This document shows positions 1,302 through 22,211 of a DNA stretch of 22,582 bases, piece after piece. Origin of the DNA: a virus; IMG/VR virus record IMGVR_UViG_3300037485_002818, positions 1-22,582 of that record; one strand, given 5' to 3'. Both the position numbers and the translations under genes were made by a program. Numbering within the stretch: position 1 is the first letter of the stretch; each line of letters begins with the position of its first letter. The notes under the pieces are model-generated. The model did no database searches. It was not told the origin of the DNA and saw only the letters and a list, made by a program, of their open reading frames with translations.

Positions 1302-3269
1302 TCAGGACAACCAGCGGCTCTTGATGACGCGCCGCCGTGGTGGGGTTGCAGAAACAGAGAGGCCACCGCGTTGGGTGGCCTCGTCTGGGTCGAATGCTTG
1401 AATCGGGGGTGGCTCATCCGGTGGCCGTTCCATCCCGAGTTGGCGTTCCAGTTCGCGCCAGTGGCGTTCCTCGAAGCGATCCAGGCCCGCCGCCGATGCG
1501 GCCGCGCGGGCGTACACGTAGCAATCGAGCGCTTCATTGCGCTCGCGCATCTTTTGCCATTCGCGCACCGGGAAGCCGTTGCGGTCGCGACGGGTAATCA
1601 ACTGTTCGGCGCAGAGCTGCTGAATGAACTCCGCGTCAATCTTTGGCAAGTGAACGAACCCCGTCGGGTAGACGGTGGTCACGCCGTCCTCGCTGACGTC
1701 CGCGCCCTTGCGCAGGTTGTTGTAGAACTCCAGCTTGCCGATGCCAACCGCCACCGTGAACACCTTGATGCCCCGGCGCAGCTTCTTGCCGCCCTGCGAA
1801 ACATCGATGGCCGTCGGCGTGCCGATCAGGGCCGCGCCGCGCGGCACCCCCTTGACCGGCATCACGCGCGGGTCACGGCAGGCCCGCACGAAGGCGTAGG
1901 CCTCCTGCGTCGCAAAGCCGGTGTCCAGAGCGAAACGGGCCAGCGGCATCGCCACGCCCGAGGCGTGCGTCCAGTTTTCGGCGAGCAACTCGGCGAGTCG
2001 CTTCCACACGGCGTCTCGGGCGGTGTCGCCCATCAGCACGCGGTGTTCGACCAACCAGGACTCCTTGCCGCGCCCGAAGGCCCAGATGGACGCCTCGATG
2101 CGATCCTTCTGCACGTCGGCAGCGCCCACCAGGAGCAACCCACCCGGCGGCACCGTGCCAACCCGGTAGTCCTCGCGGCGTTCGACCAGCCGTTGCCAAT
2201 CTGGCGCTTCGCCTTCCTCAACCCAGGTTTCACCTAGTTCGGTGTTTTTGAAGGTCTTGATGGCGGCCGCCGACCCCGATTCCTTGTTCACAGAGCTTTC
2301 CCACGCGGCAGCAATGTCGCGCCAACCGCGCCAGCCAACCGGGCTGTAAAGCGACGACAGGTGAAACCCCGCTGTCTTGCCCGTGCCGTCGCTGATCATC
2401 GCGCGCCACTCACCGTGCTCCAGCATCCAGGTCTTGTGGTGCTCGGCAATCGACTTATCGCAGGACTCGCAGATGTAGGACGCCGTGTCCGGTTGCCCCT
2501 TTTCCCATCGCAACTGCTCGAAGCGCAGCCATTGGCGATGCGAGCAGTGCGGACAAGGCAAGAAGTAGCGACGTTGGTCACTGGCCTCGTACTCGCGTTC
2601 GATGGCGCTCGCCCCCGAGATCGTCGGCGTCGACACGATGAAGATCTTGCGCCGGGCAAAGGTTCGCGTGCGCGCCTCGGCCAGCGAGATCGCATCACCT
2701 TCACCCTCGACGTCCAGCGGATACCCGTCAACCTCATCGAGGAACAGGTAGCGCACCGGCATCGAGCGCAAGCCCACCGCGCTGTTCGCCCCGGTCATCA
2801 CCAGCACGCCGCCCCGGAACTCCTTGGCCAGAATGGTGTTGCCCGAGTCGCGTGACCGTGCTGGGGAGATCAATTCGCTCAGTGCCGCCGACTCCTCGAT
2901 CAACGGATCGATCCGCTGCTTGGAATTGCGCTTAGCCATATCCACCGTTGGCCACACCGCCATCATCGGCCCCGGTGCGTGGTGAATCACATAGCCAATC
3001 CAGTTCGAGCCCATTTCAGTCGCACCGAGCTGTGCGGCTTTCATGAACACCACGCGCTCGACCGGCGAAGTCGGCGACAGGCAGTCCATGATGGCCTTCA
3101 GGTACGGCGTGCGGCTGGTGCGCCAGCGCCCAGGCTCAGCGGACGCCTTGCTCGATAGCATCCTGTGGCGATCCGACCATTCAGAGACCGAGAGCAGAGG
3201 ATCAGGTGTCAGCCCTTCACGCCACGCGCGCTCGATTTCGGCAGCGCCTTCGTATTCAACATTCAGCAT
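1302..3269 (-). CDS. Phage terminase large subunit, lambda gpA (GpA) family
   Basis: A 655-aa packaging motor: an ATPase that pumps DNA through the portal, plus a nuclease that cuts concatemers. Visible motifs are a divergent Walker A, KAAQLGATEM at residues 77-86 (compare the KSARVGYSK-like loop of lambda gpA), a Walker B LFLDEVDGYP at 175-184, a VSTPT motif-III-like segment near 212-216, and a four-cysteine zinc-finger-like element at C239, C242, C267 and C270. The C-terminal third would hold the RNase H-fold nuclease. Full length for the family. The start overlaps the TerS stop (TGATG), and the gene starts the late head cluster together with TerS. Confidence 0.95.
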   Translation of the reverse strand: MLNVEYEGAAEIERAWREGLTPDPLLSVSEWSDRHRMLSSKASAEPGRWRTSRTPYLKAIMDCLSPTSPVERVVFMKAAQLGATEMGSNWIGYVIHHAPGPMMAVWPTVDMAKRNSKQRIDPLIEESAALSELISPARSRDSGNTILAKEFRGGVLVMTGANSAVGLRSMPVRYLFLDEVDGYPLDVEGEGDAISLAEARTRTFARRKIFIVSTPTISGASAIEREYEASDQRRYFLPCPHCSHRQWLRFEQLRWEKGQPDTASYICESCDKSIAEHHKTWMLEHGEWRAMISDGTGKTAGFHLSSLYSPVGWRGWRDIAAAWESSVNKESGSAAAIKTFKNTELGETWVEEGEAPDWQRLVERREDYRVGTVPPGGLLLVGAADVQKDRIEASIWAFGRGKESWLVEHRVLMGDTARDAVWKRLAELLAENWTHASGVAMPLARFALDTGFATQEAYAFVRACRDPRVMPVKGVPRGAALIGTPTAIDVSQGGKKLRRGIKVFTVAVGIGKLEFYNNLRKGADVSEDGVTTVYPTGFVHLPKIDAEFIQQLCAEQLITRRDRNGFPVREWQKMRERNEALDCYVYARAAASAAGLDRFEERHWRELERQLGMERPPDEPPPIQAFDPDEATQRGGLSVSATPPRRRVIKSRWLS

Positions 3270-3808
3270 CAGTCCACCCGGGGCCGGAGTTCGCCCAGTT
3301 CCTGCAGGTGCTCACGTATCGCCGCCTCCAGGGCGACGTGCATCGTGTGCGGATCGATATTGAGCTTGGCCGCCATCTGCGCAGAGATGCGCGCGGGCCA
3401 GTTCAGCCACGCATCACGCTCGGAGCGCGCCAACTTGAAGACGTGGGCGATGGCCTGCGGCCGATCCACCAACTCGCCCTTCAGTCGGGCCAGACGCACC
3501 TTGTTCGTCTGCGCCTTGACGACCTCGTTGACCGTGCGCGCCTGAAGTAAGGACGCGCCGCCAGCGGGTAATGCGGCGGGCCCATCACCGCCAACACCCG
3601 TACCGCCTTCCGGCACGGCGACCTTTGCGGCCTTGGCCCGCGTACCGGTCTTCGGCACATCGGAGTTGCGAGCCCACTCGCGATCAGCACGGTCGGCATC
3701 AATGGTGCCGTCAGCCTCCGGCGTGATCCGACCTGCGCGAATTGCCTTGTGAACAGCGGTGTCGGTCACACCACGGTGACGGGCGTAAGCGCGAATCGAA
3801 ATGCCCAT
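3269..3808 (-). CDS. Terminase small subunit-like DNA-binding protein (Nu1-like)
   Basis: A 179-aa protein with an N-terminal winged-HTH-like start (MGISIRAYARHRGVTDTAVHKAIRAGRI, residues 1-28), a DGTIDADRADREWARNSD region and a helical C-terminal half (KLARSERDAWLNWPARISAQMAAKLNID). This resembles phage DNA-packaging proteins that bind cos or pac and recruit the large subunit. It lies directly upstream of TerL with overlapping stop and start, which is the usual TerS position. No convincing Shine-Dalgarno sequence precedes its ATG. The 117-base gap to the divergent small gene at 3926 must hold its promoter if the late operon is not read through from the methyltransferases. Confidence 0.85.
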   Translation of the reverse strand: MGISIRAYARHRGVTDTAVHKAIRAGRITPEADGTIDADRADREWARNSDVPKTGTRAKAAKVAVPEGGTGVGGDGPAALPAGGASLLQARTVNEVVKAQTNKVRLARLKGELVDRPQAIAHVFKLARSERDAWLNWPARISAQMAAKLNIDPHTMHVALEAAIREHLQELGELRPRVD

Positions 3809-3860: not shown

Positions 3861-3893
3861 GCTTGGCTTCTCTCTGGAACAGCGCGTTCATAC
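3861..3893 (+). repeat. Shared leader element, copy 1
   Basis: Two conserved blocks, GCTTGGCTTC (3861-3870) and GAACAGCGCGTTCATAC (3877-3893), are separated by six variable bases. The second block contains a small inverted repeat GAAC/GTTC. An AAGGAAG ribosome site and the ATG at 3926 follow. Unlike copies 2 and 3, there is no upstream strand able to pair with GCTTGGCTTC, so copy 1 lacks the 5' half of the hairpin. It lies at the left edge of the plus-strand array, next to the divergent TerS gene. Confidence 0.8.
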
Positions 3894-3925
3894 GGACGTC
3901 ATCAACACCATCAAAGGAAGCAGCA

Positions 3926-4123
3926 ATGAGCAAGTTCGAACAACTCCTGACCCAGATCGCACAAAACAAGCTGGGCATCGAAACCCTGGAAACCCGCAAG
4001 TCAGACAGCCTCGACTTCCACGACGTGGCGGTCTGGTGCCTGCGCGACGCCCTGGAGGCCGCGTTCAACGCAGGCGTCGAACAAGGCCGCAAGGCGGCGA
4101 AGTCGGACAAGGCCAACAGCTGA
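3926..4123 (+). CDS. Small DUF6900-like protein (65 aa)
   Basis: A 65-aa acidic, helical protein starting MSKFEQLLTQIAQNKLGIETLETRKSD and carrying the DSLDFHDVAVW core, followed by a second helix ending in GVEQGRKAAK. The pattern matches my memory of the DUF6900 family of short mobile-element proteins; function unknown. The ATG at 3926 is chosen over an upstream in-frame start at 3749 because AAGGAAG lies five bases before it and because the shared leader ends there. It runs opposite to the flanking phage genes. Its stop is inside TGATCA (4121-4126), a context shared with the next two genes. It could equally be an unrelated small DNA-binding or antirestriction-type protein. Confidence 0.75.
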   Translation: MSKFEQLLTQIAQNKLGIETLETRKSDSLDFHDVAVWCLRDALEAAFNAGVEQGRKAAKSDKANS

Positions 4124-4135
4124 TCAAGAACCTTC

Positions 4136-4186
4136 GAAGCCAAGCAGAAAACGCTTGGCTTCACTCCCGAACAGCGCGTTCATCAC
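4136..4186 (+). repeat. Shared leader element, copy 2 (with perfect hairpin)
   Basis: GAAGCCAAGC (4136-4145) pairs perfectly over 10 bp with GCTTGGCTTC (4153-4162) across a 7-base loop. After six bases comes GAACAGCGCGTTCAT (4169-4183) with its own GAAC/GTTC pairing. The ribosome site AGGAGAAG (4211-4218) and the ATG of the DUF3489 gene follow. There is no T-run after the hairpin, so it is not an ordinary intrinsic terminator. Confidence 0.85.
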
Positions 4187-4221
4187 GTCACCCCATCAAC
4201 CCCTTGCACAAGGAGAAGCAA

Positions 4222-4737
4222 ATGACCACCACCCAACTGACCCCGGCCCAGCACGCGATCCTGGCTTACGCCCTCGAACACACCGACGGCAAGATCGACT
4301 GGTTCCCCGACAACATCAAAGGCGGCGCACGCAAGAAGGTGCTCGACGGCCTGTTCAACCGCGCGCTGATCACCTCCGACGGCACCCACTGGTTCGTCGC
4401 CGCCGAGGGCTACGACGCGATGGGGCGCGAACGGCCTGCACCTGCGCCTTTGGTCGCCGACCCCGAAATCGAGGCCACCGTCGCAGCCGCAGAGGCCACG
4501 TGGGCCAAGGAACGCGCAGAGGCCAAACCCCGCACCCGAGAGAACAGCAAGCAGGCCACCGTGATCCAGATGCTGCAGCGCCCCGAGGGCGCAACCGTGC
4601 AGCAGATCTGCCAGACCACCGGCTGGCAGGCGCACACGGTGCGCGGCACCTTTGCCGGGGCCTTCAAGAAGAAGCTCGGCCTGACCATCGTCTCGGACAA
4701 GGTCCAAGGTGGCGAGCGGGTCTACCGGATCACCTGA
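4222..4737 (+). CDS. DUF3489 family protein
   Basis: A 171-aa protein. Residues 1-65 look like a winged-helix start (LTPAQHAILAYALEHTDGKI, then LFNRALITSDGTHWFV). The C-terminal block from about residue 108 contains SKQATVIQMLQRPEGATVQQ and TGWQAHTVRGTFAGAFKKKL, the hallmark of DUF3489, a family usually found beside DUF2924 and serine recombinase genes. The role is unknown; the HTH-like block suggests DNA binding. ATG 4222 has AGGAGAAG just upstream; the longer in-frame start at 4036 lies inside the previous gene and is rejected. Here it is separated by about 15 kb from the DUF2924-recombinase operon but carries the same leader. The stop lies in TGATCA (4735-4740). Confidence 0.9.
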   Translation: MTTTQLTPAQHAILAYALEHTDGKIDWFPDNIKGGARKKVLDGLFNRALITSDGTHWFVAAEGYDAMGRERPAPAPLVADPEIEATVAAAEATWAKERAEAKPRTRENSKQATVIQMLQRPEGATVQQICQTTGWQAHTVRGTFAGAFKKKLGLTIVSDKVQGGERVYRIT

Positions 4738-4754
4738 TCAGAAAGATCGAGAAA

Positions 4755-4798
4755 GAGGCCAAGCAGCGCTTGGCTTCTCAATCGAACAGCGCGTTACT
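4755..4798 (+). repeat. Shared leader element, copy 3 (hairpin with G-U change)
   Basis: GAGGCCAAGC (4755-4764) pairs with GCTTGGCTTC (4768-4777) across a 3-base loop. One A-U pair of copy 2 is a G-U pair here, so pairing is kept despite a base change. GAACAGCGCGTT (4784-4795) follows, after which the sequence diverges. CAAGGAG (ribosome site) and ATG 4835 come next. Confidence 0.85.
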
Positions 4799-4834
4799 AC
4801 GGGTGTCGCAACGATCACCCCCAAGGAGCCAGAG

Positions 4835-5203
4835 ATGAACACAAACCAGCAAATGCCCGCCACCCAGAACGATGCCTGGGGCTTTTGGGGCACGATGAAC
4901 GAACACGCCAGCGCCGCGTGGCCCCTGGCGATGACCGCCATCTCAGACGCCACCAGCCAGCCCCTCGAATCAGTCCGCGTCTTCCTCGACAGTCGCCACG
5001 GCCGCCACTTTGCGGACGATGTGCAAAACGGGCTGTACCGGGGCCAGACCCTGGCGGACGCGATCAACGCCGCCAACCAACAGTGGATGGGCTGGACGAT
5101 TGGCCGCCAGACCAGCAAGCAGTACGGCATCCCGCGCGGCCTGCCTTACCTGACGGGGTTCGTGATTCATTGCGAGATCGCGGAAGAGTCGATCGCCGCC
5201 TGA
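4835..5203 (+). CDS. Conserved hypothetical protein (122 aa) of the leader-linked array
   Basis: A 122-aa soluble protein beginning MNTNQQMPATQNDAWGFWGT. It is rich in Trp and helices, with SVRVFLDSRHGRHFADDV in the middle and IGRQTSKQYGIPRGLPYLTG near the end. I do not recognise a named family; proteins of this look occur as hypothetical genes in proteobacterial plasmids and islands. ATG 4835 is supported by CAAGGAG seven bases upstream and by the leader; an in-frame start at 4709 would translate through the leader and is rejected. The 3' end overlaps the convergent methyltransferase gene by 37 bases, which is unusual and suggests a junction formed by deletion. The stop lies in TGATCA (5201-5206). 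Confidence 0.75.
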   Translation: MNTNQQMPATQNDAWGFWGTMNEHASAAWPLAMTAISDATSQPLESVRVFLDSRHGRHFADDVQNGLYRGQTLADAINAANQQWMGWTIGRQTSKQYGIPRGLPYLTGFVIHCEIAEESIAA

Positions 5204-6438
5204 TCATCGAACAGCGCGCCATCCGACTCACGGGTGGCTTGCTTGCCAGTCCATTCCTGCCAGCGGCGCACGATCACGTCCGCGTACTTCGGGTCGAGCT
5301 CGATCAGCCGTGCCAGCCGTCCTGACTTTTCGGCGGCGATCAGCGTCGTGCCGGAGCCCCCGAACGGGTCGAGCACCACGTTGCCCGGTCGGCTCGAATT
5401 GCGGATCGCGCGCTCGACCAACTCCACCGGCTTCATCGTCGGATGCAGGTCGTTCTTCTGCGGCTTCTTGATGTTCCAGACGTCGCCCTGGTCGCGGTCG
5501 CCGCACCAGTGACGCTGCGCGCCCTCGGGCCATCCGTACAGGATTGGCTCGTACTGGCGCTGGTAGTCGGCCCGGCCCAGCGTGAAGGTGTTCTTGGCCC
5601 AGATGATGAACGTCGACCACTTTCCACCGGCGGCACGGAACGCTGCCTGCAGCACATCCAGTTCGCTGGACGACATCGCCACGTAGATGCCGCCCCGGCA
5701 GTTCCCGATGGTCGGCGTCAGCGCCGCCAGCAGGAAGTCGTAGAAGCCGTCGCCGAGGTTGTCGTTCAGGATCGCGCGATCCTTGCCACGCATCTTGTCC
5801 TTGGCGCTGTTGGCGTAGTTCACGTTGTACGGCGGGTCGGTGAAGACCATATCCACCGGCTCGCCATCAAGAACTCGGTCGTAGCTCTCAGCCACGGTGG
5901 AGTCGCCACACAGCAGACGGTGGCCGCCGAGCAGCCAAACATCGCCTGGACGCGAAACCGGAGTCTCGCTGACCTCGGGTACCGCATCGTCATCGGTTTC
6001 GCCTTCGGCATCCGGCTCGTCGCCCGCCATCAACTCGGCGAGCGCATCGGCATCGAAGCCGGTCAGCGACACGTCGAAGTCGTCGTCCTGGAGGGACGCG
6101 ATCTCGATGCGCAGCATCGCGTCGTCCCAGCCCGCGTTCTCGGCGATGCGGTTGTCCGCGATCACCAGTGCCCGGCGCTGCGTCGCGCTCAGATGATCGA
6201 GCACCACCACCGGCACCACCGCCAGCCCAAGCTTCTGCGCAGCGGCAAGCCGTCCGTGACCGGCGACGATCACTCCGTCGCTACCGGCGAGGATCGGATT
6301 GGTGAATCCGAACTCGGCAATCGACGCGGCGATCTGCGCCACCTGATCGTCCGAGTGGGTACGCGCGTTGCGGGCATAGGGCAGCAGCTTGGCGGTCGGC
6401 CACTGCTCGATCTTGTCCGCAAACCAAGAGGCGGTCAT
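5167..6438 (-). CDS. ParB-domain DNA methyltransferase (N6-adenine/N4-cytosine, beta order) 1
   Basis: A 423-aa protein. Residues 1-110 form a ParB/Srx-like domain (RNARTHSDDQVAQIAASI, VAGHGRLAAAQKLGL, ADNRIAENAGWDD). An acidic linker around 136-160 follows. The methylase has its catalytic motif TDPPYNVNY at 200-208 and the SAM-binding DPFGGSGTT at 357-365, with an LDPKYADVIVRRW end. Catalytic motif before SAM motif is the beta-class order. Phage orphan methylases of this form protect DNA from host restriction. No restriction enzyme gene is next to it. Its ATG overlaps the stop of the second methylase (ATGA). The last 12 codons overlap the convergent 122-aa gene and include the leader remnant. 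Confidence 0.93.
   Translation of the reverse strand: MTASWFADKIEQWPTAKLLPYARNARTHSDDQVAQIAASIAEFGFTNPILAGSDGVIVAGHGRLAAAQKLGLAVVPVVVLDHLSATQRRALVIADNRIAENAGWDDAMLRIEIASLQDDDFDVSLTGFDADALAELMAGDEPDAEGETDDDAVPEVSETPVSRPGDVWLLGGHRLLCGDSTVAESYDRVLDGEPVDMVFTDPPYNVNYANSAKDKMRGKDRAILNDNLGDGFYDFLLAALTPTIGNCRGGIYVAMSSSELDVLQAAFRAAGGKWSTFIIWAKNTFTLGRADYQRQYEPILYGWPEGAQRHWCGDRDQGDVWNIKKPQKNDLHPTMKPVELVERAIRNSSRPGNVVLDPFGGSGTTLIAAEKSGRLARLIELDPKYADVIVRRWQEWTGKQATRESDGALFDDQAAIDSSAISQ
5201..5218 (+). repeat. Truncated remnant of a further leader element
   Basis: TGATCA at the stop of the 122-aa gene runs straight into ATCGAACAGCGCG (5206-5218). That is identical over 13 bases to the second block of copy 3 with its preceding bases (4781-4793). 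The hairpin and the first block that should lie between are missing. The piece is inside the 3' end of the minus-strand methyltransferase gene. Confidence 0.55.
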
Positions 6439-7844
6439 TGCTCGGCCTCCGTGGTAGCCAGACGTTCATTGACCACCTCGTCAAAGGACTGGCCTGTTGC
6501 CAATAGCGTCACCGGCACGCCGGGGTGGTTCTGTTGGAAGCGCTTGATGGCGACATCCACGTACTCCGGCGCGATCTCCACGCTGCGACACACACGACCG
6601 GTGCGCTGCGCGGCCAACATCGTCGTGCCGCTGCCGCCAAAGGGCTCGAACACGACGTCGCCAGCATCCGAGTAGGCCTCGATCACGAATTCCGGCAGCG
6701 CCACCGGGAACACCGCCGGGTGGTCGATGTCCTGACCGATCTTGCCCTTGTGGCGCATCACGCGAATCACCGAGTCGGGAATCCGGGTGTCCTGTGTCGG
6801 CTGGCCCTTGTGCGTCCAGCCGCCGACCTCGCCGTCCTTACCACGCATGGCCGTGGACGACCCGTCTGCGCGCAGGTGCGACTCCTGGCCCGCGTGCTTG
6901 CAGGGCACGATCTTGTTGGGTTTGCGACTGGCGCGGTTGAAGTGAAAGACGAACTCGAAACTCGGGGCGAAGCGACCGGCCCAGTCCCCGGGCATCCCTG
7001 GCCCTTGATCCCAGACGTACCAAGCGAAACGCCGCCAGCCCTGCGTGCGCATCCAGCCCAGCCACGCATCCCAATACGGGATGACTTCGTTGTCTCGATG
7101 GATCAGCCCGAGGTTGACCAGCACCTGCCCGTCGTCGGCCATTGGCACCTTGGCGAACACACCGCGCATCAGGCCATCCCAATCGGTGATGCCGCCGGAG
7201 GTGTAGTCGCGCTGGTTGCCGTAAGGCGGTGAGGTGAAGCACAGCCGGGCCGCATCGCCCTGCATCAGCGTGGCGACTGCTGTCGCGTCGGTGGCATCGC
7301 CACAGATCAGACGGTGGGAGCCGATGGCCCAGACATCGCCGGTGCGGGACACCGGCACCACAGGGGCATCCGGCACATCGTCACCAGCGTCTGGCTCGTC
7401 GGCAACTGCCTCCTGGTCGGCGTCATCGGTTTCCACCTCGTCAGCGAGCAAGACCTCGATCTCGGCATCCTCGAAACCGGTCAACGCAAGGTCGTACCCG
7501 GCCTCGGACAGCTCGGCCATTTCCAGCGCCAGCATCTCCTCGTTCCAACCGGCGTCGAGCGCCAGCCGGTTGTCAGAGATGACGTAGGCACGCTTCTGCG
7601 CGGGCGAGAGGTGCGCCAGTTCTATGACCGGCACCTGATCCAGCCCGAGCTTGCGCGCGGCGGCCAGACGACCGTGGCCCGCAATGATCCCGTTGTCGCC
7701 GTCCACCAGCACCGGATTCGTCCAGCCGTACTCGACGATGCTGGCGGCGATCTTGGCCACCTGCTCGTCAGTGTGCGTGCGTGGATTGCGGGCGTAGGGG
7801 ATCAGCGCCTCGACCTTGCGGTACTCGACGTTGAGCGTGTTCAG
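6435..7844 (-). CDS. ParB-domain DNA methyltransferase 2, probable CTG start
   Basis: About 469 aa. The ParB-like N-terminus (RNPRTHTDEQVAKIAASI, IIAGHGRLAAARKLGLDQ, SDNRLALDAGW) and acidic linker parallel methylase 1. The catalytic motif is TSPPYGNQ (SPPY at about 205-208) and FGGSGTT at about 402-408 binds SAM. SPPY rather than DPPY fits N4-cytosine enzymes but is not proof. The segment between the motifs is longer and unlike methylase 1, so target specificity probably differs. There is no in-frame ATG or GTG near the start. GAGGAA lies six bases before a CTG at 7844 (N-terminus then (M)NTLNVEYRKVEALIPYARN). The longer reading from TTG 7940 passes through a terminator and is unlikely. Confidence 0.85.
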   Translation of the reverse strand: MNTLNVEYRKVEALIPYARNPRTHTDEQVAKIAASIVEYGWTNPVLVDGDNGIIAGHGRLAAARKLGLDQVPVIELAHLSPAQKRAYVISDNRLALDAGWNEEMLALEMAELSEAGYDLALTGFEDAEIEVLLADEVETDDADQEAVADEPDAGDDVPDAPVVPVSRTGDVWAIGSHRLICGDATDATAVATLMQGDAARLCFTSPPYGNQRDYTSGGITDWDGLMRGVFAKVPMADDGQVLVNLGLIHRDNEVIPYWDAWLGWMRTQGWRRFAWYVWDQGPGMPGDWAGRFAPSFEFVFHFNRASRKPNKIVPCKHAGQESHLRADGSSTAMRGKDGEVGGWTHKGQPTQDTRIPDSVIRVMRHKGKIGQDIDHPAVFPVALPEFVIEAYSDAGDVVFEPFGGSGTTMLAAQRTGRVCRSVEIAPEYVDVAIKRFQQNHPGVPVTLLATGQSFDEVVNERLATTEAEQ

Positions 7845-7856
7845 AATCGGTTCCTC

Positions 7857-7892
7857 AAAAAGAAAACCCGCCGACGGAAAACCGTGGGCGGG
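7857..7892 (-). terminator. Intrinsic terminator or attenuator just before methyltransferase 2
   Basis: On the minus strand CCCGCC, one mismatch, ACGG, loop TTTT, CCGT, mismatch, GGCGGG forms a strong hairpin followed directly by TTTTCTTTTT. The T-run touches the GAGGAA ribosome site of methyltransferase 2, so this reads as a leader terminator rather than a simple end of the upstream operon. Confidence 0.85.
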
Positions 7893-7920
7893 CTCGTGAT
7901 GGGTGCGGACTGGGGTGGGT

Positions 7921-7954
7921 GCAAACTGCAAACCCTGCAAACCTTGGTTTGCAG
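7921..7954. repeat. GCAAAC direct and inverted repeat cluster
   Basis: Three direct GCAAAC units (7921, 7928, 7937) and one inverted unit lie within 34 bases. The last direct and the inverted unit form a perfect 9-bp inverted repeat CTGCAAACC / GGTTTGCAG with only TT between (7935-7954). On the minus-strand transcript CTGCAAACC could pair with either of two following GGTTTGCAG copies, so two alternative hairpins exist about 30 bases before the terminator hairpin. It may be a protein operator or a switch for read-through. Confidence 0.75.
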
Positions 7955-18824: not shown

Positions 18825-19676
18825 TCAGACGATCTTGGCCCCCGGCTTGAGAAGACCATAGCGCTCCATCCGTACCTGGATGAATCGTCGGTTGACGCCG
18901 AAGCGCTTGGCCACGGCCTTCTGCAAACATTCGATGTCGAAGAACCCGATATCGCCATCAGCCGTCAGGTGAAGGCAGGTGCCGGGCAAATCGGGATCAA
19001 GCGACGGGCTGCGGTGGATCGTCACACCGTGTTTCGGAGCCAACTCTTCGACCGCCAGATTCAGGCGTTGGCGCGGCACCAGCAACGACCCCATGAACTC
19101 GTTGGCACGCAGCTCGGCGAAGTATTCTTCCTTGGTGGTGTGGCCCGGAATCGCCAGCGAGGGCGTCGCAGCCGCCTCGACGACGGGCTGGACTTTCGCC
19201 AAGTGCTCCAAGTCACGGGTGGTCGTGCGGTAGGCCCGCCGCGCCGCGTCGCTGGGCTCATCGAACAAACCCGGCCCCTTGCTGGCATCCACGATCCATC
19301 CTGGCGCATCGAAGATGGCGTGGCCGAGCTCGTGCCCGAGGGTGCTCAGTACCAACTCCTCGCTGGCGTTCACGCCAACCGGTGACACCGACACCATCGC
19401 GGTGTCCGGCACGCCAGGATCGTACTCACAGATGCCCAGGACAGGGTTCCCGCGCTCGTCATGCACGACGTCACCGGTGCCGACGAACAGGTCGAAGACC
19501 ACGCCGTTGATCTTCAGGCCGGAGATGGCGCTCAGGGTGGCGAGCGAGATGGCATCGGCAGCAGCATCCACCAGTTGCTGGCGGGCCAGGACGGCGATGC
19601 CCTCAATCTCGGAATTCTTGATGTAGCTGGGGCGTTTTCGGTCGCAATGCCGGTAGCCAAGAGTCAACACCGGCAT
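18825..19676 (-). CDS. ImmA/IrrE family metallopeptidase
   Basis: A 283-aa protein with the zinc-protease motif HELGHA (H115, E116, H119) and a downstream third ligand, probably E188 in FAELRANEFMGSLLVP, both typical of ImmA/IrrE. In ICEBs1 and some phages ImmA cleaves the cognate XRE-type repressor to start induction. The C-terminal 60 residues (GFFDIECLQKAVAKRFGVNR) look like an extra HTH-like segment, so the protein is longer than minimal ImmA. The ATG follows the XRE stop with no gap (TGAATG). The pair forms a repressor/antirepressor-protease switch. Confidence 0.9.
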   Translation of the reverse strand: MPVLTLGYRHCDRKRPSYIKNSEIEGIAVLARQQLVDAAADAISLATLSAISGLKINGVVFDLFVGTGDVVHDERGNPVLGICEYDPGVPDTAMVSVSPVGVNASEELVLSTLGHELGHAIFDAPGWIVDASKGPGLFDEPSDAARRAYRTTTRDLEHLAKVQPVVEAAATPSLAIPGHTTKEEYFAELRANEFMGSLLVPRQRLNLAVEELAPKHGVTIHRSPSLDPDLPGTCLHLTADGDIGFFDIECLQKAVAKRFGVNRRFIQVRMERYGLLKPGAKIV

Positions 19677-19955
19677 TCACTTGTCCCCCGTCGCTTGCTT
19701 GCGATACATCCGTACCAGGCCCCCCACGTCGTCGCGCATGTCTGGCGGAAGGCGGCTGGCCTCAACAAAGGCGTCGTCGACATTCTCGCCAAGGATTTCT
19801 GCCGCCTTGCGGATCAGCTCGTCCTTAGGCGGCTTCTCGATGTCGCGCTCTATGCGCGACCAGTAGGCAGGCGAGATGTCCAGCTGCCGGGCGAAGTCAT
19901 TCATCTGAATGCCCTTCGCCTCCCTCTTCTGTCTGATGTAGGCACCAAATGCCAT
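19677..19955 (-). CDS. XRE-family repressor (cognate partner of ImmA)
   Basis: A 92-aa protein with a Cro/CI-type HTH at about residues 5-60: FGAYIRQKREAKGIQMNDFA, RQLDISPAYWSRIERDIEKP, then ELIRKAAEILGENVDD. A short C-terminal tail follows, as in ImmR-like repressors. ATG 19955 is preferred; a TTG at 19967 would add four residues and overlap the operator. It has a TTGACA-N17-TACGAT promoter and motif copies at its start, so it probably represses itself. It is co-transcribed with ImmA. The orientation equals that of the early genes, unlike the usual divergent CI/Cro layout. Confidence 0.88.
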   Translation of the reverse strand: MAFGAYIRQKREAKGIQMNDFARQLDISPAYWSRIERDIEKPPKDELIRKAAEILGENVDDAFVEASRLPPDMRDDVGGLVRMYRKQATGDK

Positions 19956-19966
19956 GTTGTGACCCA

Positions 19967-20040
19967 ATTGCGTGATTAGTTAATTGACGCCATCGTATCG
20001 AGCAGATCGGCGTCTGTCAACTGTTTCGTTAACGCGCAAT
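19967..20040 (-). promoter_or_regulatory. XRE-ImmA promoter and operators
   Basis: On the minus strand TTGACA (20015-20020), a 17-base spacer and TACGAT (19992-19997) make a strong sigma70-like promoter. ATTGCGTGATTAGTTAAT (19967-19984) covers the expected transcription start. A contracted inverted copy, GTTAACGCGCAAT (20028-20040), lies just upstream of the -35. GACGCC (19986-19991) and GGCGTC (20009-20014) form a further inverted repeat between the promoter boxes. Confidence 0.75.
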
Positions 20041-20182: not shown

Positions 20183-20374
20183 ATGAAGAACCTCGAACTC
20201 GCATCTCCCTCAGAGATGTCCGCCAGCGCCCGCGCTGGTGAAATCACCGCCATCCTTGCGGCCGCCATCGTCCGCACCGTCGTCGCAGAAGCGCCAAAAC
20301 AGAGAGAAGTTGGCCTTGGCTTCCTGCCCGACCAGCGCGTTCATACAACCCCCTATCAACAGGAGAAGTTGTGA
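20183..20374 (+). CDS. Small protein (63 aa) at the head of the DUF2924-recombinase operon
   Basis: A 63-aa reading frame, MKNLELASPSEMSASARAGE then ITAILAAAIVRTVVAEAPKQ. The first 45 residues have a plausible amphipathic helix, and I associate similar small frames with DUF2924 operons. The last 20 codons run through leader copy 4, so that part of the protein is dictated by a nucleic-acid element. The stop shares one base with the DUF2924 ATG (TGATG). CTCGGAG lies before the start. It may be a real small protein or a leader peptide that couples translation to the DUF2924 gene. Confidence 0.45.
   Translation: MKNLELASPSEMSASARAGEITAILAAAIVRTVVAEAPKQREVGLGFLPDQRVHTTPYQQEKL
20288..20346 (+). 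repeat. Shared leader element, copy 4
   Basis: CTTGGCTTC (20315-20323) and GACCAGCGCGTTCATAC (20330-20346), with the same six-base spacing, repeat the leader of the array 15 kb away. Upstream GAAGC (20288-20292) and GCCAA (20293-20297) can pair with GCTTC (20319-20323) and TTGGC (20310-20314), leaving CTTG as a bulge, so a hairpin is kept in altered form. AGGAGAAG and the DUF2924 start follow. Confidence 0.75.
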
Positions 20375-20826
20375 TGAACGAGAAACAAGCATCCGTCGCC
20401 GCGCGGATCGCGGAGCTGTCGAGCCTGCCCATCGCCGAGTTGTGGCCAGTGTGGGATCGGTACTTCAGCAGCCGCCCCATCAACCCGAACCGCGTATTCA
20501 TCGAGTCGCGCATCGCCTACAAGATGCAGGAGGAAGCCTTCGGCGGTCTGGCGCACAACACGCGCCAGCGCCTGGAGGCCATCGGTGCCAAGCATTCCAA
20601 CATCAAGCTGCGGGCTCGCCCGCGCGACACCAACTTTGCGCCCGGCACCGTGCTGCTGCGCGAATGGGGCGACCGCGAGCACAAGGTGGCGGTCACCGCC
20701 GAAGGTCTGTTCGAGTACGAGGGAAGCACCTTCAAGAGCCTGACAGCCGTGGCCCGGCAGATCACCGGCACGCACTGGTCGGGGCCACTGTTCTTCGGCC
20801 TGACCAGCAAGGCAGGTGCGCAATGA
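20374..20826 (+). CDS. DUF2924 family protein
   Basis: A 150-aa protein with the family pattern: RIAELSSLPIAELWPVWDRY, then a SRIAYKMQEEAFGGLAHNTR helix, a PGTVLLREWGDREHKVAVTA segment and the beta-rich ending FEYEGSTFKSLTAVARQITG and HWSGPLFFGL. DUF2924 genes are regularly placed directly before serine recombinases and often near DUF3489, and the end of the domain resembles small DNA-binding modules of recombinase accessory proteins. AGGAGAAG lies before ATG 20374. The stop overlaps the recombinase ATG (ATGA). Likely an accessory to the recombinase; activity unknown. Confidence 0.92.
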   Translation: MNEKQASVAARIAELSSLPIAELWPVWDRYFSSRPINPNRVFIESRIAYKMQEEAFGGLAHNTRQRLEAIGAKHSNIKLRARPRDTNFAPGTVLLREWGDREHKVAVTAEGLFEYEGSTFKSLTAVARQITGTHWSGPLFFGLTSKAGAQ

Positions 20827-22211
20827 GCGACGCCACCCAAATCGCCTCTCCCAAGACACGCAAACGCTGCGCCGTCTACTGCCGGGTGTCGTCGGACGAG
20901 CGCCTTGACCAGGAGTTCAACTCCATCGACGCGCAGAAGGAAGCTGGCCACGCCTATGTCGCCAGCCAGCGCGCCGAGGGCTGGATTCCGGTGGCCGACG
21001 ACTACGACGACCCCGGCTTCTCCGGCGGCAACACGGATCGGCCGGGGCTAAAACGCCTGATGGCCGACATTGAGCGCGGCCAGATCGACATCGTGGTGGT
21101 CTACAAGATCGACCGCCTGACGCGCAGCCTCGCCGACTTCTCCAAGATGGTCGAAGTGTTTGAGCGCCAAGGCGTGTCGTTCGTGTCGGTCACGCAGCAG
21201 TTCAACACCACCACCTCGATGGGGCGGTTGATGCTCAACGTGCTGCTGTCCTTCGCCCAGTTCGAGCGCGAGGTCACCGGCGAGCGCATCCGCGACAAGA
21301 TCGCCGCCAGCAAGCGCAAAGGGATGTGGATGGGTGGCGTGCCGCCGCTCGGCTTCGACGTCGAGAACCGTCTGCTGGTCATCAACGACGCGGAGGCGGC
21401 GGTGGTGCGGCGAATCTTTGAGGAGATGCTGACCATCGGCTCGCCCACCCAGATTGCCGCCAACCTGACGCTGGATGGCATCACGACCAAGGCGTGGACG
21501 ACACAGGACGGCCAGACGCGGGCGGGCACGCGCATCGACAAGAAGTATCTGCACAAGCTGCTGCGCAACCGCATCTACCTCGGGGAGTTGTCGCACAAGG
21601 GCAGTTGGTACCCGGGCGTGCATCAAGCCATCATCGATCCCGGTCTGTGGGGCCGGGTTCACGAGGTGCTGGCCAAGGACGGTCACACCCGGTCGGTGGA
21701 AACCAAGATCAGGTCGCGCACCGACGCCTTGCTGCGCGGCCTGCTGTACGCACCCTCAGGCGAGCGGATGTACCCGACCTACTCGCGCAAGAACGGGCGC
21801 AAATACCACTACTACGTGTCCAAGTCGGAAGCGAGGTTCGGCGCGCCGGGCAAGAGCTACGAGCGCCTGCCTGCGCTGGAGATCGAGGGGGCGGTGGTGG
21901 CCCAGATCCGCACGGTGCTGACCAGCCCGGAGACCGTAGCGTCGGTGGTGCGGCACATCCAACGCAACGGGGCCCAGATCGACGAGGCCACCACCGTGAT
22001 GGCGATGGGACGGCTCAACAACGTCTGGGATCAACTGTTCCCGGTCGAGCGCCACCGCATCGCCAATCTGATGATCGAGCGCATCGACCTCGTCCACGCG
22101 GGCGAGGTGCAGGGGATCAAGGTGAAGTGGCGTGAGGTGGGTTGGAACGCGCTGATCGCGGAGTTCGCCCCGGACAGCATCGGTGCCGAACTGCTGGAGG
22201 TCGAAGCCTGA
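20823..22211 (+). CDS. Serine recombinase (resolvase/invertase N-domain, large type)
   Basis: A 462-aa recombinase. The catalytic N-domain shows YCRVSSDE with the nucleophile serine at S23 (or S24), GFSGGNTDRPGL, VYKIDRLTRSLADF (R98 and R101) and the MLNVLLSFAQFEREVTGERI helix at 137-156. A recombinase domain follows (IRDKIAASKRKGMWMGGVPP). The expected zinc beta-ribbon at about 304-335 (GLLYAPSGERMYPTYS, then KYHYYVS) keeps the fold pattern but has none of the usual cysteines; C16 and C20 are the only cysteines I find. It may integrate this element or act on the leader-linked cassettes. The stop overlaps the next start (TGATG). Confidence 0.93.
   Translation: MSDATQIASPKTRKRCAVYCRVSSDERLDQEFNSIDAQKEAGHAYVASQRAEGWIPVADDYDDPGFSGGNTDRPGLKRLMADIERGQIDIVVVYKIDRLTRSLADFSKMVEVFERQGVSFVSVTQQFNTTTSMGRLMLNVLLSFAQFEREVTGERIRDKIAASKRKGMWMGGVPPLGFDVENRLLVINDAEAAVVRRIFEEMLTIGSPTQIAANLTLDGITTKAWTTQDGQTRAGTRIDKKYLHKLLRNRIYLGELSHKGSWYPGVHQAIIDPGLWGRVHEVLAKDGHTRSVETKIRSRTDALLRGLLYAPSGERMYPTYSRKNGRKYHYYVSKSEARFGAPGKSYERLPALEIEGAVVAQIRTVLTSPETVASVVRHIQRNGAQIDEATTVMAMGRLNNVWDQLFPVERHRIANLMIERIDLVHAGEVQGIKVKWREVGWNALIAEFAPDSIGAELLEVEA

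Follow-up and report, generated by a model that had tools for sequence, protein, structure and literature searches.

Why do three unrelated small genes of one phage each begin with the same short leader? The question is raised by the IMG/VR virus record IMGVR_UViG_3300037485_002818, which was analysed whole and which we call the window (22,582 bases). The plus-strand genes for a DUF6900, a DUF3489 and a phrog_8020 protein lie there between the minus-strand genes of a terminase small subunit and a DNA methyltransferase. Each of the three is preceded by an exact copy of two blocks separated by six variable bases, GCTTGGCTTC-N6-GAACAGCGCGTT (3861-3888, 4153-4180 and 4768-4795, plus strand), and a fourth copy with two mismatches (20314-20341, plus strand) stands ahead of a DUF2924 gene and a serine recombinase gene. 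The pattern has no match in 100 shuffles. An earlier inspection of the letters alone (the sequence-only reading) had described three unrelated plus-strand genes amid minus-strand phage genes and a shared two-block leader with six variable bases, and both descriptions are correct. Our answer, to which we give a probability of about 0.6, is that the leader is a promoter-like control element of cassettes that are exchanged by homologous recombination between leaders.

Under this proposal, a recognising factor would act at the leader and give each small accessory gene its own transcription start, putatively at the purine of a conserved YRYC, and a 5' untranslated region (UTR) of about 30 nucleotides (nt). 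A cassette would consist of the leader, a Shine-Dalgarno sequence and the gene, to which some families would add a 3' tail that pairs with the first block (box A) of the next leader in a terminator-like hairpin. Since the cassettes would share their first 40 base pairs (bp) or so, homologous recombination from leader to leader, whether inside a single phage or with a resident prophage as the partner, could remove, add or exchange whole cassettes and leave their expression intact.

The leader itself is very constant. In a gapless alignment its core reads CTTGGCTTC-N6-GAACAGCGCGTTCAT, followed by six variable bases, the first of them almost never T, and YRYC. A weight matrix built from 536 distinct leader contexts, with at least 21 bits counted as a copy, finds 643 copies in 1.9 Mb of fetched sequence, which is partly overlapping or redundant and was mostly fetched because the motif is present. 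The reversed sequence has none. In all fetched loci, most of which were fetched using the N6 pattern, 553 of the 554 distinct exact pairs have a 6-nt spacer. Loci were also fetched by protein similarity, independently of the leader, taking the best 80 matches per search, hence close relatives, and dropping 25 duplicates (14 + 11) and 3 cases near contig ends. In these, a leader stands ahead of 61 of 63 phrog_8020 genes and 69 of 69 DUF6900 genes, by a score with the 6-nt spacer built in, and 105 of the 130 leaders lie 36-39 nt ahead of the start of the protein match. The two phrog_8020 exceptions are a leader with a 10-nt spacer and one with a trace of the second block (box B). Near position 3000 of locus L263, the spacer of a phrog_8020 leader is 10 nt long, not 6, with AATC duplicated, a natural spacing variant. 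The six variable bases track the downstream gene clearly in family 1, where they are TCAATC in 78 of 116 cases whatever gene precedes. A leader peptide, considered by eye, was dropped since common leader variants alter its residues.

The genes behind the leader are diverse. An open reading frame follows 636 leaders. Initial clustering gave 44 clusters, including out-of-frame calls and contig-end stubs, and was set aside for a reduced set: 26 clusters have at least two members, and 23 were compared after dropping singletons, two clusters judged out of frame or run-off and one without an ATG start. The 253 profile comparisons among these 23 reveal one homologous pair (96%) and one doubtful pair (30%). 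About 22 families that appear unrelated by profile stand behind the leader. In the 91 distinct arrays with both borders no more than 900 bases away, they occur in 36 gene orders (34 of them free of any doubtful cluster); a wider set of 112 bounded arrays, which contains duplicates and 15 arrays with a distant border, gives 43. A bounded array has 1 to 7 leaders. The order found in the window, DUF6900-DUF3489-phrog_8020, is the commonest (37/91), and ten gene pairs are found in both orders amongst all arrays. One core order is therefore preferred, modified by insertions, losses and some swaps; the genes are not freely permuted. The phrog_8020 gene is nearly always last, with another leader closely 3' of only 1 of 125 complete copies. 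That the leader might precede only the same genes in a fixed order had been one objection foreseen to a cassette system, and with some 22 families and 36 orders it falls away.

The cassette genes are probably accessory and moron-like. DUF932 is the sole Pfam match among ten cargo proteins from outside the window (the DUF932 protein was queried via the first 170 of its 329 residues), and the PADLOC defence models match none of ten cargo proteins, four of them window proteins. The predicted model of the DUF3489 protein has weak winged-helix-like structural matches, none with an E-value of 0.001 or better. A sequence search of PDB finds nothing for DUF3489 and weak matches only for the other two array genes of the window. 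The predicted phrog_8020 model is all-helical and has no convincing match among the solved structures in PDB; one near-threshold viral match (E-value 1.7e-3) is to a protein of unknown function.

The leader also serves genes outside the arrays, as we conclude from the DUF2924 gene ahead of the recombinase and from family 9, which stands alone behind lysis-type genes: holin- and lysozyme-like ones (by eye) in one of two loci inspected and a holin-like one in the other. Near the family-9 cassettes we observe a translation resembling a type I restriction subunit (L083, 6597-9699) and McrC-like proteins (L074, 3166-5467), both by eye; they may be defence genes, either the host's own at the attachment site or carried by the phage. 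In L014, L070 and L134, a leaderless family-3 gene lies behind DUF3489, where the window has nothing. Family 3 has its own leader in other phages, so that operon membership and leader can change. In L244 (Pseudomonas phage Bise), a DUF6900 gene and a family-18 gene are adjacent and have no leader, and both families thus also exist outside the leader system.

How do cassettes come and go? When arrays are aligned together with their flanks, a block of leader plus gene is present in one relative and absent from the other in 27 classes; in 21 of these, the neighbours to the left and right are the same in the array that lacks the block. The best cases show a hybrid leader in the shorter array: its left part is that of the longer array's first leader and its right part that of the second. 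L234 and L156 have flank identities of 99.4% and 96.8%; here the crossover falls at 14-18 and the hybrid explains 115 of 120 sites, against 93 and 79 for the two parents. The crossover lies between -2 and 12 for L086 and L203 (hybrid 118/120 sites), at 17-34 for L073 and L125 (116/120), at 0-10 for L228 and L072 (112/120) and at 32 for L043 and L035 (111/120). We extended the comparison to 39 distinct triplets in which each flank is at least 88% identical, taking -3 to 40 from the leader start as the leader interval; triplets of one class are not independent, and the comparison does not separate gain from loss. The crossover lies wholly inside the interval in 19 of the 39 triplets, and in 16 of these 19, from 7 event classes, the hybrid beats either parent by at least 10 sites; we call these clear hybrids. 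Three triplets have an equal gain with the crossover outside or partly outside the leader, and in the remaining 20 the hybrid is not clearly better, with the junction upstream of the leader in many.

Crossover intervals of the clear cases are mutually exclusive (14-18, 0-10, 32), and we therefore rejected one fixed crossover point. Crossover points that differ between events fit homologous recombination between leader repeats, carried out by a putative recombinase, and not a site-specific site. An integron-like system, in which the phage's serine recombinase or another integrase would cut the leader as its attachment site, is accordingly very unlikely. It could explain why a leader also precedes DUF2924 and the serine recombinase and why array content is open-ended. 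Besides the mutually exclusive intervals, what speaks against it is that arrays sit mostly at one phage locus, that 72,556 plasmid records (and E. coli genomes) gave no match to a single 54-base leader query and that some cassette genes are leaderless behind another gene. Of the earlier suggestions, gain, loss and shuffling of a cassette survive in part: leader plus gene is present or absent as a unit and partly reordered, but the evidence does not support TGATCA as part of that unit. The leader as a recombination site needs similar trimming, as the crossover is often inside it but not at a specific point.

The hairpins belong to the junctions between cassettes. Those at leader copies 2 and 3, already noticed in the sequence-only reading, are both present. 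The one at 4136-4162 has 10 bp and a 7-nt loop (-16.1 kcal/mol, z -6.2), and that at 4755-4777 has 10 bp, one of them G-U, and a 3-nt loop (-15.1 kcal/mol, z -4.7). In each, the leader's first block forms one arm. No such hairpin is seen at copy 1. In the whole leader set, an upstream arm complementary to box A in all ten pairs accompanies 104 of 287 non-first leaders, 0 of 287 shuffled ones and 3 of 166 first leaders; with at least eight of ten pairs the counts are 173/287, 54/287 and 15/166. Counted by preceding gene, a hairpin of at least 8 bp is found behind family 2 in 54/103, family 0 in 51/87, family 3 in 21/40 and family 4 in 16/25 cases, and at 8/166 first leaders. Its frequency varies with the preceding gene. 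The hairpin is a separate element contributed by some upstream genes. In our reading it is part of the upstream cassette, serves as a terminator-like or mRNA-end element and makes use of the following leader's box A. Well-paired hairpins (8 or more of the ten pairs) have 259 altered positions; at 155 of these the change lies in the 5' arm and still allows pairing, mostly as G-U, and 96 are broken. Because the selection of well-paired cases and the G+C-rich genomes both favour retained pairing, this is only a hint that the hairpin acts as RNA.

The stop context TGATCA is present at all three array stops in the window, as had been seen, but it is not a general cassette feature. TGATC follows the stops of the four commonest families in 58/142, 74/125, 43/124 and 11/49 cases, and those of all other families in 6/150; the baseline is 320 of 3438 TGA stops. 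On these counts TGATCA was rejected as a cassette border. A partial GAACAGCGCG after gene 3 was likewise rejected as a leader remnant because it reads as methyltransferase codons: the string TGATCATCGAACAGCGCG found 3' of gene 3 encodes GALFDDQ on the minus strand, near the methyltransferase C-terminus, and a similar string follows only 17 of 123 phrog_8020 genes.

Could the leader instead be a structured regulatory RNA that heads each gene in the manner of a riboswitch or a thermometer? The constant distance to the start codon and the hairpins at copies 2 and 3 would suit such an RNA, as would the pairing kept at 155 of 259 altered hairpin positions, allowing for the selection just described. 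We consider it improbable. Rfam has no gathering-score match in the window, and its 8 sub-gathering matches in the array region (E-values up to 10) include no plausible family, so that the known RNA family that might have explained the leader away did not appear. Over the 536 contexts the core shows no pairing covariation: columns 16-28 hold 69 G-A and 31 A-C combinations, and columns 17-27 hold 35 C-T. The core plus UTR folds no better than with a shuffled UTR (mean z -0.13, 250 leaders), and a hairpin of at least 8 bp is missing in 158 of 166 first leaders. On the lack of Rfam match, covariation and fold above shuffled, the structured RNA leader that had been put forward earlier was rejected. 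Also rejected were a pairing of box A with the UTR (duplex at -8.26 against -8.77 kcal/mol for shuffled) and with the Shine-Dalgarno region (-7.43 against -7.27 kcal/mol for reversed box A).

The leader is most likely a compact DNA control element, and its layout suggests a non-canonical promoter. It has a -35-like TTGGCT, 17 bp, a -10-like GTTCAT or GTTACT, 6 bp and a conserved Y-R step. Such hexamer spacing is sigma-70-type promoter geometry. Of 347 gaps between a stop and the next leader, 231 measure 10-39 nt (and 56 at least 150 nt), and the short ones leave little room for another promoter. As the geometry is that of a promoter but the hexamers are poor, we propose a non-canonical one, perhaps assisted by an activator or an alternative factor. 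A bolder version, which we put forward tentatively, would make the leader a new promoter class, used by a dedicated phage factor or an alternative host factor, that doubles as the anchor of cassette exchange; prophages of many Proteobacteria would take promoter-tagged small genes from one shared pool and reassemble their arrays by way of the leader, with help from the phage's own annealing or recombination proteins. Less probable still, and in our view unlikely, is an operator at which a shared repressor or activator, for instance a phage XRE or DUF3489 protein, controls otherwise ordinary promoters. Two rigid blocks at a constant 6-nt spacing do resemble a protein footprint, and the weak winged-helix-like matches of the DUF3489 model are in keeping with this idea. 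The DUF3489 cassette, however, is not seen in some arrays (it could lie elsewhere), and no consensus promoter is seen beside the leader.

Several observations weigh against exchangeable promoter cassettes. As to the promoter, a consensus scan finds no sigma-70 promoter in the array, the -10-like hexamer is a poor one and the G+C content of box B is high. The leader-to-start distance of 36-39 nt for 390 of 532 starts depends on how we chose start codons, with preference for ATG, for a Shine-Dalgarno match and for a distance near 38; a looser choice favouring long frames places 314 of 531 there. The link of the six variable bases to the downstream gene is weaker in families 0, 2 and 4. Cassette genes also occur without a leader behind another gene (31/175 for DUF3489, 12/67 for family 3). 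As to exchange, a further 1118 alignment pairs with an indel have no leader repeat at the junction, and in 20 of the 39 triplets the crossover is not wholly in the leader: many, of classes (0,3,1) and (0,7,1), have it upstream, and two near the start codon. Units that begin with a leader give overlapping flank alignments anyway, so only the hybrids bear on mechanism. As to the cassette end, the hairpin is found in 0 of 8 cases behind family 6 and 1 of 9 behind family 8. No plus-strand T tract follows the hairpin (mean T fraction 0.13 in 149 hairpins), on which ground a canonical plus-strand intrinsic terminator was rejected.

The leader motif recurs in many related virus contigs and prophages. 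Pattern scans found it in at least 120 stretches of IMG/VR and at least 117 stretches of a collection with one genome per species, and the leader set is a sample of these; genome loci were taken in blocks of at most 8000 bases, so that some arrays are partial. Record titles often name genera of Burkholderiales, Rhodocyclales and Xanthomonadales type, with single records of Pseudomonas, Nitrospira and others; these host labels come untallied from the titles, and those of metagenome bins may be wrong. In 300 genomes sampled from the order of G002, a genome chosen because the motif is present in it, a leader with at most one mismatch is found in 27, with at least two copies in 15 of them, and a control pattern has no match. 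In a sample of 398 genomes of its phylum, 7 match, namely G002, G059, a further genome with an exact match and four that have a single one-mismatch copy each, perhaps by chance; the control pattern has one match. The single 54-base query matches only the three AcaML1 records among 50,697 phage records. The contigs L234 and L156, labelled Tepidiphilus and Tepidicella, have a 626-base flank that is 99.4% identical and differ by one cassette at its junction, a likeness that suggests recent phage transfer between host genera.

Most arrays sit at one phage locus, between terminase and methyltransferase genes. Three leaders occupy this region in AcaML1 as well, the first overlapping the annotated 5' part of the terminase small-subunit gene. 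This position invites the idea of a packaging or replication site, with the leaders as repeated binding sites for the terminase small subunit, which AcaML1 annotates as gpNu1-like, or for a replication protein. Of all the explanations we weighed it is the least credible: the copies are tied to start codons and irregularly spaced, and further copies stand ahead of DUF2924, at a distance of 16 kb, and between lysis-type genes and family 9. Table 1 collects the features of the window. The phage also encodes a P4-family primase and a helix-turn-helix (HTH) regulator in addition to its serine recombinase. Two adjacent minus-strand genes at 5167-7940 each combine a ParB-like part (just below the Pfam cut-off) with an N6_N4 DNA methyltransferase, and AcaML1 likewise has two adjacent methylase genes at the same place. 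On the minus strand at 18825-19967, the HTH regulator is followed by a gene resembling an ImmA-type peptidase by eye, for which Pfam gives no family; the two are a possible ImmR/ImmA-like switch.

Table 1. Features of the leader cassettes and their borders in the window (aa, amino acids).
Feature	Position	Strand
Leader copy 1 (box A GCTTGGCTTC, N6, box B GAACAGCGCGTTCAT), without upstream hairpin	3861..3891	+
Cassette gene 1, 65 aa, DUF6900 (PF21841)	3926..4123	+
10-bp hairpin 3' of gene 1; box A of leader 2 is its 3' arm	4136..4162	+
Leader copy 2	4153..4183	+
Cassette gene 2, 171 aa, DUF3489 (PF11994)	4222..4737	+
10-bp hairpin (one G-U pair) 3' of gene 2; box A of leader 3 is its 3' arm	4755..4777	+
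Leader copy 3, GTTACT variant of GTTCAT	4768..4798	+
Cassette gene 3, 122 aa, phrog_8020	4835..5203	+
Leader copy 4 (2 mismatches), about 16 kb away from the array	20314..20344	+
DUF2924 gene (PF11149), behind leader copy 4	20374..20826	+
Serine recombinase (Resolvase and Recombinase domains), 3' of DUF2924, start approximate	20826..22211	+
Terminase small subunit, left array border	3269..3808	-
N6_N4 DNA methyltransferase with ParB-like part (ParB_N score just below Pfam cut-off), right array border	5167..6438	-

The leader cassette system is real, recurrent and, as far as we searched, apparently undescribed. Searches by domains, sequence blocks and concept found no description of it among the open-licence papers listed, and the single paper containing GAACAGCGCGTT appears to concern fungal chitinase secretion. 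The sequence-only reading had known of no described cassette system with this sequence; that stands to the extent of these searches, the principle being known from the T4-type phages discussed below. One 31-nt motif becomes a search handle for arrays of unknown small genes in prophages of many Proteobacteria, whose roles (counter-defence, superinfection exclusion, host takeover and others) may then be approached family by family. It also points to a possibly uncharacterised promoter type.

Known systems share parts of this design. Integron cassettes form open-ended arrays of promiscuous small genes, with one fixed recombination point per site. The arrays described here have no single crossover point, and the leader is at the 5' side of each cassette. 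Integrons further have an attC-type folded site behind each gene, on which our comparison covers simple hairpins. Morons are inserted between phage modules. They are accessory genes with their own promoter and terminator for which autonomous transcription is possible, according to a passage of PMC5567305. The position and strand of our arrays would fit a moron; in contrast to morons, up to seven leaders stand in one bounded array and have one common sequence. In cluster K mycobacteriophages, a repeated sequence (SAS; ESAS) precedes genes of many families, about half of the copies with an upstream inverted repeat, according to passages of PMC3203893 and PMC12699233. The SAS, GGGATAGGAGCCC, is directly upstream of the start codon, whereas our leader differs in sequence and lies mostly 36-39 nt upstream, and those passages do not mention gain or loss by recombination in the motif. 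In the haloarchaeal virus HGTV-1, part of PMC3950731 places most left-side open reading frames behind a TATA-box-like motif with an inverted repeat and compares these to the T4-type system. Its host is archaeal, and the likeness to our leader is one of description only.

The closest known system, as far as citing passages describe it, is that of the promoter early stem-loop cassettes (PeSLs), reportedly the subject of Arbiol 2010 and Comeau 2014. A PeSL is a T4 early promoter in a T4-like myovirus. To our knowledge its sequence is unrelated to that of the leader. In the T4-type phages, passages of PMC4503421 and PMC3950731 describe a composite motif of promoter and terminator stem-loop that mediates modular gene shuffling. 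The likeness lies in a motif between unrelated genes that is the crossover point of shuffling, as in the 16 clear hybrids among our 39 triplets. A PeSL combines promoter and stem-loop in one intergenic motif; here a hairpin stands behind many, not all, genes, and the promoter is a putative one. The points of difference are that the hairpin shares the first block of the next leader and that the near-invariant 31-nt core has no recognisable sigma-70 promoter. A T4 early promoter is not what we find: the sigma-70 consensus is lacking, and the window phage carries a P4-family primase, a serine recombinase and an HTH regulator. The leader cassettes belong to temperate-type phages and prophages of Proteobacteria, mainly at one locus. 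By analogy they would work like PeSLs, but we do not file them as members of the PeSL family. With them, motif-anchored gene shuffling would extend from T4-type to temperate phages, the crossover being located by the hybrid leaders.

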